This document shows positions 2,680 to 4,523 of a stretch of DNA of 64,000 bases, in pieces. The notes beneath the pieces are model-generated. The model searched no databases, was not told where the DNA came from, and saw only the letters and a program-made list of their open reading frames with translations. This stretch comes from Alphaproteobacteria bacterium. Lineage in GTDB: Bacteria > Pseudomonadota > Alphaproteobacteria > UBA828. A program made the translations under genes and the position numbers. The stretch spans positions 45,358 to 109,357 of the forward strand of contig JAJEEP010000098.1 of the NCBI GenBank assembly GCA_022820945.1, in the 5' to 3' direction. Position 1 is the first letter of the stretch. Every line of letters begins with the position of its first letter.

Positions 2680-4434
2680 CTAGACCCTCGCCTCCACGCG
2701 GATCGTGACGATGTCCGTGTCGTGATATTGCTGGTGGTGGACGGAGGAAGCGAGGTGGCGCAGGAGCCGTAGCGACACCTCCCGTTCTGGTGCGTCGTCG
2801 GATGCCTGGCCCATGAGCGCGATCCGGTCCTCCAGGTTCTCCTCGCCGGGCGCCGCGATGAACTCAAGTACCGCGGCGCTGCCTTCCTTGTAGGCAGTAA
2901 GCAGCAGGCGCCGCGTCCGGTGCGGCGCGCCCTCCGCCTCTTCCTCTTCGTCGTGCCGCAGCAGCGTCAGCATCGCTTCCTCGGCGGCGGCGTCGAGGCG
3001 GTGCGCCATCGCCTCGTTCCAGCCGTTGCGGGTCGCGAAGGTCTGCAGGAACTCCCTGATCTTCGGCAACGACGCGACCTCGAACGGCGCCTGGATGCGG
3101 CGCCGGCGGGGCGCCGCCAGCTCGACGAAGAGCGTGAGCAGAATCGCCGTCATCCCGCCGGCTGTCATGCCGTTTTCCAGCAGCCCGCCGGCGATACCCG
3201 AGACATGCTCGGGGAAGATCACGCCGTTCTGGAAGCCGACCCCGATCCAGAAGGACACCCCTGCAATCAGACCCTTGCGGTAGTCCACCCCGTCCTGGAT
3301 GACGATCCGCATGCCGACCACGAAGAGCAGACCCAGCAGCACGGTGATATAGGCGGCCGCGACCGGCCCCGGTATTGCCAGCACCACGGCGAGCGCCTTT
3401 GGAATGAACGCCACCACGACGAACGCGATCCCGAGCGCGACGCCTACGCTGCGGGCGCCCACGCCGGTGAGCGCGGTGACCGATATGCTGGTGGAATAGG
3501 TCGTGTTGGGCACGGTCCCCATCAGGCCGGAGAGCAGGTTGCCCACGCCGTCGGCGCCCACCGCCCCTTGCACCGCCCGAAAATTCACCGCGCGCGGCTT
3601 GCGCCAGGAGACCCGCTGGATGGCGATACCGTCGCCCACCGTCTCAATGGCGCCGACCAGGGTCACGAAGACGAAGGCCGGCAGGAGGCCCCAGAAGACC
3701 GGCCCGAAGTCGATATCGAAGCCCGGCCAACCGCCCGACGGCACACCCACCCAGGACGCCGCGGCGATACCGGCGACATCGTAGAAGCCGAAGTACCCGG
3801 CAACCCCGCAGCCGGCGACGATGCCGATGACCGGCGCCCAGAGTCTGAGTGCGCCCGTGGCTTTCAGCGAGATACCGCACAGGACGAGCACGGTCACAAG
3901 CGCCGCGAGCGGCGCGCCGAGCTCCGACGTGCCCTCCGGAACCTGCGTCAGCATGCTGAAGACAATCGGCATCACCGTGACCGGGATCAGCATGATGACG
4001 GTGCCCGAGACGGTGGGCGTGAGGATGCGCCGAAGGAGTGAGAGTCGCCACGCAAGCAGGAACTGGAAGAGGGCGGAGATCACCACCAGCGTCGCCAGCA
4101 TCGCCGGGCCGCCCTGGGCAATCGCGCCGACGCAGATCGCGATGAAGGCCCCGGAGGTGCCCATGACAAGGACGTAGCCGGCACCGATTCGCCCGACTCG
4201 GACGGCCTGGAGGACCGAGGTGATGCCGCTGACCAAGACGGCGCCGAAGACCGCCCACGAGAGATAGGATTCCGGCCCGCCGGCGGCGCGGACCACGATC
4301 GCAGGCGTCAGCGCGACGCCGGCGATGCAAAGGACGGCGAGCTGCAGGCCGAGGCCGCAGCTAAGCGCAATGGGCGGTCGCTCGTCCGGCTCGTAGCGAA
4401 CGCCGCCGGGCCGCTCTGAGCCGCCTGTCGTCAA
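2680..4434 (-). CDS. NCS2 (xanthine/uracil permease, SLC23-like) transporter with C-terminal HATPase/RsbW-like domain
   Basis: N-terminal ~450 aa polytopic with NCS2-like segments; C-terminal ~125 aa soluble, 'HRLDAAAEEAMLTLL...EREVSLRLLRHLASSVHHQQYHDTDIVTIRVEA' resembling anti-sigma-factor kinase folds. Confidence 0.8.
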   Translation of the reverse strand: MTTGGSERPGGVRYEPDERPPIALSCGLGLQLAVLCIAGVALTPAIVVRAAGGPESYLSWAVFGAVLVSGITSVLQAVRVGRIGAGYVLVMGTSGAFIAICVGAIAQGGPAMLATLVVISALFQFLLAWRLSLLRRILTPTVSGTVIMLIPVTVMPIVFSMLTQVPEGTSELGAPLAALVTVLVLCGISLKATGALRLWAPVIGIVAGCGVAGYFGFYDVAGIAAASWVGVPSGGWPGFDIDFGPVFWGLLPAFVFVTLVGAIETVGDGIAIQRVSWRKPRAVNFRAVQGAVGADGVGNLLSGLMGTVPNTTYSTSISVTALTGVGARSVGVALGIAFVVVAFIPKALAVVLAIPGPVAAAYITVLLGLLFVVGMRIVIQDGVDYRKGLIAGVSFWIGVGFQNGVIFPEHVSGIAGGLLENGMTAGGMTAILLTLFVELAAPRRRRIQAPFEVASLPKIREFLQTFATRNGWNEAMAHRLDAAAEEAMLTLLRHDEEEEAEGAPHRTRRLLLTAYKEGSAAVLEFIAAPGEENLEDRIALMGQASDDAPEREVSLRLLRHLASSVHHQQYHDTDIVTIRVEARV

Positions 4435-4523
4435 TTCGCACTCTCCCTGTCCTGGAGTGCGAGGCGGACTCTGGCACAGGTTAGCGCTGTAACGAAGTGA
4501 CTTGCGATGAGCGGGCGTCCCCG

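Follow-up and report, generated by a model that had tools for sequence, protein, structure and literature searches.

Why would a nucleobase-type permease end in a domain that resembles an anti-sigma factor? The question was raised by a gene in the window, a stretch of 64,000 nucleotides of alphaproteobacterial DNA. The initial annotation, made from the letters alone, had read this gene as an NCS2 permease with a C-terminal domain of the anti-sigma-factor/histidine-kinase ATPase fold, probably degenerate, and had proposed a transporter-coupled regulatory module or transceptor.

Gene and Domain Architecture

We found an open reading frame of 584 aa exactly at 2680-4434 on the minus strand, which the initial annotation had left unspecified, with a TTG start codon at 4434, a stop codon at 2680-2682 and a Shine-Dalgarno-like sequence, AGGGAGAG (4441-4448, minus strand), 6 nt upstream of the TTG. 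The era gene precedes it with a gap of 89 bp, a convergent alpha/beta-hydrolase gene lies 1 bp from its end, and the lepB/era/acpS neighbourhood is common to loci L003-L008. A promoter and terminator scan found none. Residues 28-401 matched Xan_ur_permease (PF00860; E = 1e-43, 150 bits against a cut-off of 27), and residues 451-571 matched HATPase_c_2 (PF13581) at a whole-protein E-value of 2.9e-5; the isolated tail gave E = 1.1e-6 and 29.1 bits, above the cut-off of 27.4. These matches agree with the domain content first proposed, both peptides quoted in the initial annotation are present in the translation, and homologs 97-50% identical were found at 39 loci.

The same architecture of permease and tail occurs in a second gene of the source genome. 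This, together with purifying selection, argues that the tail is neither a chance fusion nor a drifting extension. The NG86 dN/dS values, from pairs that are not independent, were 0.08-0.24 for the tail and 0.02-0.16 for the permease, and so the tail is not the poorly conserved appendage that the initial annotation had named as the contrary outcome. The distances of tail and permease were correlated (Mantel r = 0.72, 0/999 permutations), suggesting that the two parts were mostly inherited together.

Fold of the Tail

The putative cytoplasmic tail, an RsbW/SpoIIAB-like pseudo-GHKL domain of about 140 aa, comprises residues 441-584 (2683-3114, minus strand). An AlphaFold2 model built with 56 homologs reached a pLDDT of 82.1 and showed the order b-a-a-b-b-a-b-b, with low confidence in the lid region (pLDDT 53-66). 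When this model was compared with known structures using Foldseek, UsfX, RsbW and SpoIIAB came first (E from 2.8e-7 to about 1e-4; target-normalised TM-score 0.64-0.82) and CheA later (E = 7e-4). In a profile comparison with hhalign, the tails matched a reference of three intact RsbW-like domains from the fetched genomes at 94.7% (E = 5.8e-8), over the N-terminal half including the N-box. PF13581 was matched at E ≤ 0.1 by 35 of the 56 aligned tails, and any other family by at most four. No STAS model of Pfam was matched by the tail, so that a C-terminal STAS domain of the SLC26/SulP type is absent. A search of PDB sequences with tail profiles returned nothing relevant, and the case for homology therefore rests on Pfam, the fold and the profile comparison. 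These three concur in predicting that the tail is a GHKL fold of the RsbW/SpoIIAB type, and the structure prediction, which the initial annotation had suggested as a check, thus bears out its reading of the fold.

The likeness to RsbW, SpoIIAB and UsfX extends to the strand order, the N-terminal helices and the N-box Glu. In contrast to those proteins, the tail is fused to a transporter, lacks the N-box Asn, DxGxG and the G2 glycines, and has no regular STAS or sigma partner nearby. The tail also matched, weakly, a model of an RsbA-type anti-sigma regulatory protein (NF041045; 23.5 bits against a curated cut-off of 210), but that model does not describe a transporter.

Loss of the ATP Site and Conservation of Other Residues

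Column statistics were taken over 102 non-identical family members, with residue numbers of the window protein. In the degenerate N-box, RLDAAAEEAMLTLL (residues 479-492; 2959-3000, minus strand), Glu486 is kept and the Mg-binding Asn is replaced by Thr490. The family consensus is EE(T/A)LL(T/S)L, and 101 of the 102 members have E485 and E486; the residues listed for position 490 are T, S, V, I and L, never N. The corresponding stretch of intact RsbW reads VDEAVTNVIQHAY. The place of the DxGxG box is taken by LEFIAAPGEENLED (residues 523-536; 2827-2868, minus strand), in which the family shows LEF-x(7)-N-x-x-D instead of the VRDHGRQFDP of intact RsbW; E524 is conserved in 100, N533 in 101 and D536 in 95 members, and the DxG position has no Asp in any of the 102. 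In place of the G2 box stands a C-terminal signature, EREVSLRLLRHLASSVHHQQYHDTDIVT (residues 550-577; 2704-2787, minus strand), without the G2 glycines. Here E-x-S-L-R-L-L-R-H, followed by the invariant H567, corresponds to GGLG-LI of RsbW, and the counts were 99 for R556, 102 for L558, 95 for R559, 92 for H560, 102 for H567 and 96 each for D574 and T577. The residue correspondence at the DxGxG and G2 segments was set by eye, as hhalign aligned the first half only.

The proposed degeneracy of the tail therefore holds for all 102 members, from which the N-box Asn, DxGxG and the G2 glycines are gone. Judged from these motifs, the tail is a predicted pseudo-kinase in which ATP binding and catalysis have been lost. 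A polar set remained near-invariant (E485, E486, E524, N533, R556 and H567), and 13 tail columns were conserved in at least 97% of the 102 members, across several phyla. An outer clade of members at most 50% identical (L191-L194, L196 and L197) likewise lacks the ATP motifs and keeps E486, E524, N533, R559 and H567. A tail with intact motifs fused to a permease was sought in this clade (L191-L194 and L196) and was not found.

Permease Part and Putative Substrate Site

The permease part, with a UapA/UraA fold, covers residues 20-440 (3115-4377, minus strand), as supported by the Pfam match and by a full-length AlphaFold2 model (pLDDT 82, 28 homologs). This model returned UapA (5i6c, E = 5e-17, TMt 0.78), UraA (TMt 0.85), SVCT1 and then SLC26 in Foldseek. 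Since only permeases were returned for the full-length model, the tail was folded separately.

The protein shares with the NCS2/NAT (SLC23) members UapA, XanQ and UraA the PF00860 match, the fold, and the substrate-site acids Glu264 in TM8 and Asp295 in TM9. It differs at the NAT signature. In the TM10 region, PNTTYSTSISVTALTG (residues 309-324; 3463-3510, minus strand), alignment to UapA and to E. coli XanQ and UraA and the columns of the 102 members showed that the pattern [QEP]-N-x-G-x(4)-T-[RKG] is replaced by T315-S316-I317-S318, only the later T-G being kept. Most family members have T/S-S-V/I-S/A where XanQ and UapA have QNNG and UraA has ENIG, a replacement of the Q/E-N-x-G of the known transporters. 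The TM8 acid is Glu in 54 of 102 members, with R, Q, K or D as the main alternatives; 85 members retain the TM9 Asp. The altered signature and the variable acids suggest that the substrate is probably neither xanthine nor uracil, and that it probably differs among paralogs while the tail stays constant. Annotation by the best family matches would give a xanthine/uracil permease, probably wrongly.

Distribution and Descent

The fusion was found in Alpha- and Gammaproteobacteria, Gemmatimonadota, Chloroflexota, Acidobacteriota, Rhodothermota and one spirochaete, usually with 2-12 copies per genome. In the order sample, all eight genomes of the window's genus carried it, as against none of 14 others. 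At E ≤ 0.001, matches were obtained in 1 of 299 genomes sampled from the window's phylum and 13 of 289 from its class, in 38 of 249 Gemmatimonadota (the phylum of L018; up to 12 copies), 28 of 251 Chloroflexota (that of L027; three of the hits are weak and fall on stand-alone RsbW-like proteins), 16 of 247 Acidobacteriota (that of L013) and 1 of 247 from the phylum of the spirochaete, L011. The only free-standing relatives of the tail were distant and intact: RsbW-like proteins from Chloroflexota and from a single alphaproteobacterium.

The initial annotation had called for a count of this architecture. In the 18 genomes having the family, 64 of 76 full-length NCS2 permeases were tailed, and the tailed family is the main NCS2 type in these genomes. 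In line with the proposed coupling to a transporter, the inspected copies of the tail are joined to a permease. The source genome carries two intact copies and one fragment, and a PF00860 search of it returned the two tailed permeases only. The fragment (L044; G000:C147:116202-116369), a third tail of about 55 residues beside PIN-domain/antitoxin-like ORFs, is a pseudogene remnant. Two members of the permease clade, L146 (G326:C63) and L148 (G325:C152), have an open permease frame and no tail, and no tail remnants were detected downstream of either.

In the tree the family stood on a long branch, apart from XanQ, UacT, UraA and L136. The outgroup was limited to L136 and the three E. coli proteins because several canonical tail-less NCS2 genes missed the family profile. 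The E. coli relatives lack a C-terminal domain, whereas the family described here has one. Among the named loci, phyla were intermixed across starred branches (12 label changes against a minimum of 6), which indicates horizontal transfer, although mis-binning of metagenome-assembled genomes (MAGs) can mimic single cases. One probable case of mis-binning is L022: the contig bears the title Gammaproteobacteria, yet its permeases and the genes beside them are almost identical to those of Gemmatimonadota loci. The family is a distinct branch of NCS2/SLC23-fold transporters, and the data point to an undescribed family of regulated transporters. Our literature search, with preprints and most subscription journals outside its coverage, found no paper on this architecture or on an expansion of NCS2 transporters among sponge symbionts.

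Each of the 39 named loci lies in a MAG, and for at least 13 the MAG set can be matched to published sponge samples. Twelve loci carry the codes RHO, IRC and APA, which we read as the sampled sponges Rhopaloeides, Ircinia and Aplysina (PMC8163846); 277c, the code of L009, belongs to a specimen of Petrosia ficiformis (PMC8941161). As the main NCS2 type, also in marine-sponge bacteria, the family may have substrates that matter for sponge symbiosis. Single-contig genomes are represented in the outer clade, which may be non-symbiotic.

Possible Function of the Tail

We give about an even chance to a model in which the tail, as a non-catalytic module on the cytoplasmic side, would dimerise and tune the transporter in cis, by analogy with STAS in SLC26. 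The last transmembrane helix would run into the pseudo-RsbW domain, which, without ATP binding or catalysis, would dimerise and exert allosteric control over the transporter. The Arg-rich PRRRR junction that follows the last helix suggests a cytoplasmic location; dimerisation and control of transport by the tail are likewise inferred. RsbW/SpoIIAB domains form dimers, and so do NCS2 transporters. Action in cis is favoured because no conserved operon partner emerged: among 178 neighbouring proteins scanned, no family recurred in more than three. The tail follows the final TM helix, the position of the regulatory cytoplasmic STAS domain in SLC26 (PMC6497670). SLC26/SulP transporters thus resemble the present family in having a related transmembrane fold and a cytoplasmic domain at this position, but they carry the RsbV-like STAS, whereas the family here carries an RsbW-like relative of its partner kinase. 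An apparently inactive relative of RsbW, the natural partner kinase of STAS, would thereby occupy the place of STAS on the sister family SLC23/NCS2, making testable the general idea that partner-switching modules serve as plug-in regulators of elevator transporters. Since L146 and L148 keep an open permease frame without a tail, some copies may be able to do without it.

A purely structural role would by itself leave the invariant E486, E524, N533, R559 and H567 unexplained, and these look like a binding site. The conserved polar residues might form a new site for a nucleotide or metabolite that gates the transporter, a reading we consider unlikely; the near-invariance of the polar set despite loss of the canonical site, and its persistence in the divergent outer clade, speak for it, but the lid region of the model is of low confidence. 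That the tail is still an active ATP-dependent kinase or ATPase with unusual motifs would fit the retention of the catalytic-type Glu486, but is very improbable, given that no member has the residues through which RsbW and SpoIIAB bind Mg-ATP, namely the Asn, DxGxG and the G2 glycines. Hardly credible at all is decay, with the fused RsbW domain no longer functional and free to drift. All GHKL motifs are lost, the dN/dS of the tail is somewhat above that of the permease and two clade members are tail-less, as such decay would predict; the low dN/dS of the tail, its strongly conserved columns and its retention through deep paralogs and horizontal transfers nevertheless largely refute it.

The main rival, possible though on the unlikely side, is a transceptor: at the membrane the tail would bind a sigma factor or a soluble STAS (RsbV-like) protein and release it according to the transport state, linking substrate uptake to gene expression or partner-switching. 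The nearest folds, being anti-sigma factors, are consistent with this, as are two lineages in which a STAS gene adjoins the permease. In Gemmatimonadota one paralog (L100, the same locus as L151) is followed directly by a stand-alone STAS gene, which its two closest orthologs, L152 and L153, also have (STAS 94% and 69% identical); in L012 another lies upstream. Against these two cases about 0.2 would be expected by chance in 12 genomes, a rough and post hoc estimate based on 57 tail copies, about three stand-alone STAS genes in each genome and a gene content assumed to be some 4,300 per genome. Moreover, in L100 (L100:6318-8060) and its orthologs L152 and L153 the TM8 Glu is replaced by Arg and the TM9 Asp by Cys, as expected of a sensor that no longer transports, and from these substitutions L100-type paralogs are perhaps non-transporting sensors. 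However, genes for STAS proteins, sigma factors or PP2C do not recur near other tailed copies, no STAS gene adjoins the permease at the window locus, more distant orthologs of the STAS-linked paralog have none within about 1.5 kb, and a genome with as many as 12 tails would require many partners or one shared. A wider form of this idea, that symbionts share by horizontal transfer a whole family of transceptors with varied substrate sites, some perhaps non-transporting, all reporting through the pseudo-RsbW tail to STAS/sigma partner-switching, is doubtful; if true, membrane nutrient sensing would directly control gene expression.

Other Genes near Tailed Permeases

Individual loci adjoin TRAP and DASS transporters, an aminotransferase, PKS/ACP genes, a hydantoinase or a GBBH-type dioxygenase. 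Eight loci (L018, L020, L021, L022, L025, L026, L028 and L035; Gemmatimonadota-, Acidobacteriota- and Rhodothermales-type) contain tandem pairs of divergent tailed permeases, sometimes split by an aminotransferase-III-like or transporter gene, and the paired permeases might form heterodimers. Polyketide synthase and acyl-carrier genes adjoin tailed permeases at L019:7942-11715, L024:4820-7339, L028:3-1709 and L035:1-2093. In the outer clade, L191, L193 and L194 adjoin hydantoinase A/B, or a GBBH/TauD-type dioxygenase with a BCCT-like transporter, or a 3-hydroxyacyl-CoA/carnitine-dehydrogenase-like gene; these neighbours offer leads to the substrate, namely hydantoins and carnitine-type compounds. 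Small genes for DUF1330 or YCII-like dimeric alpha/beta-barrel proteins adjoin tailed permeases at L121, L135, L017, L026 and L128.
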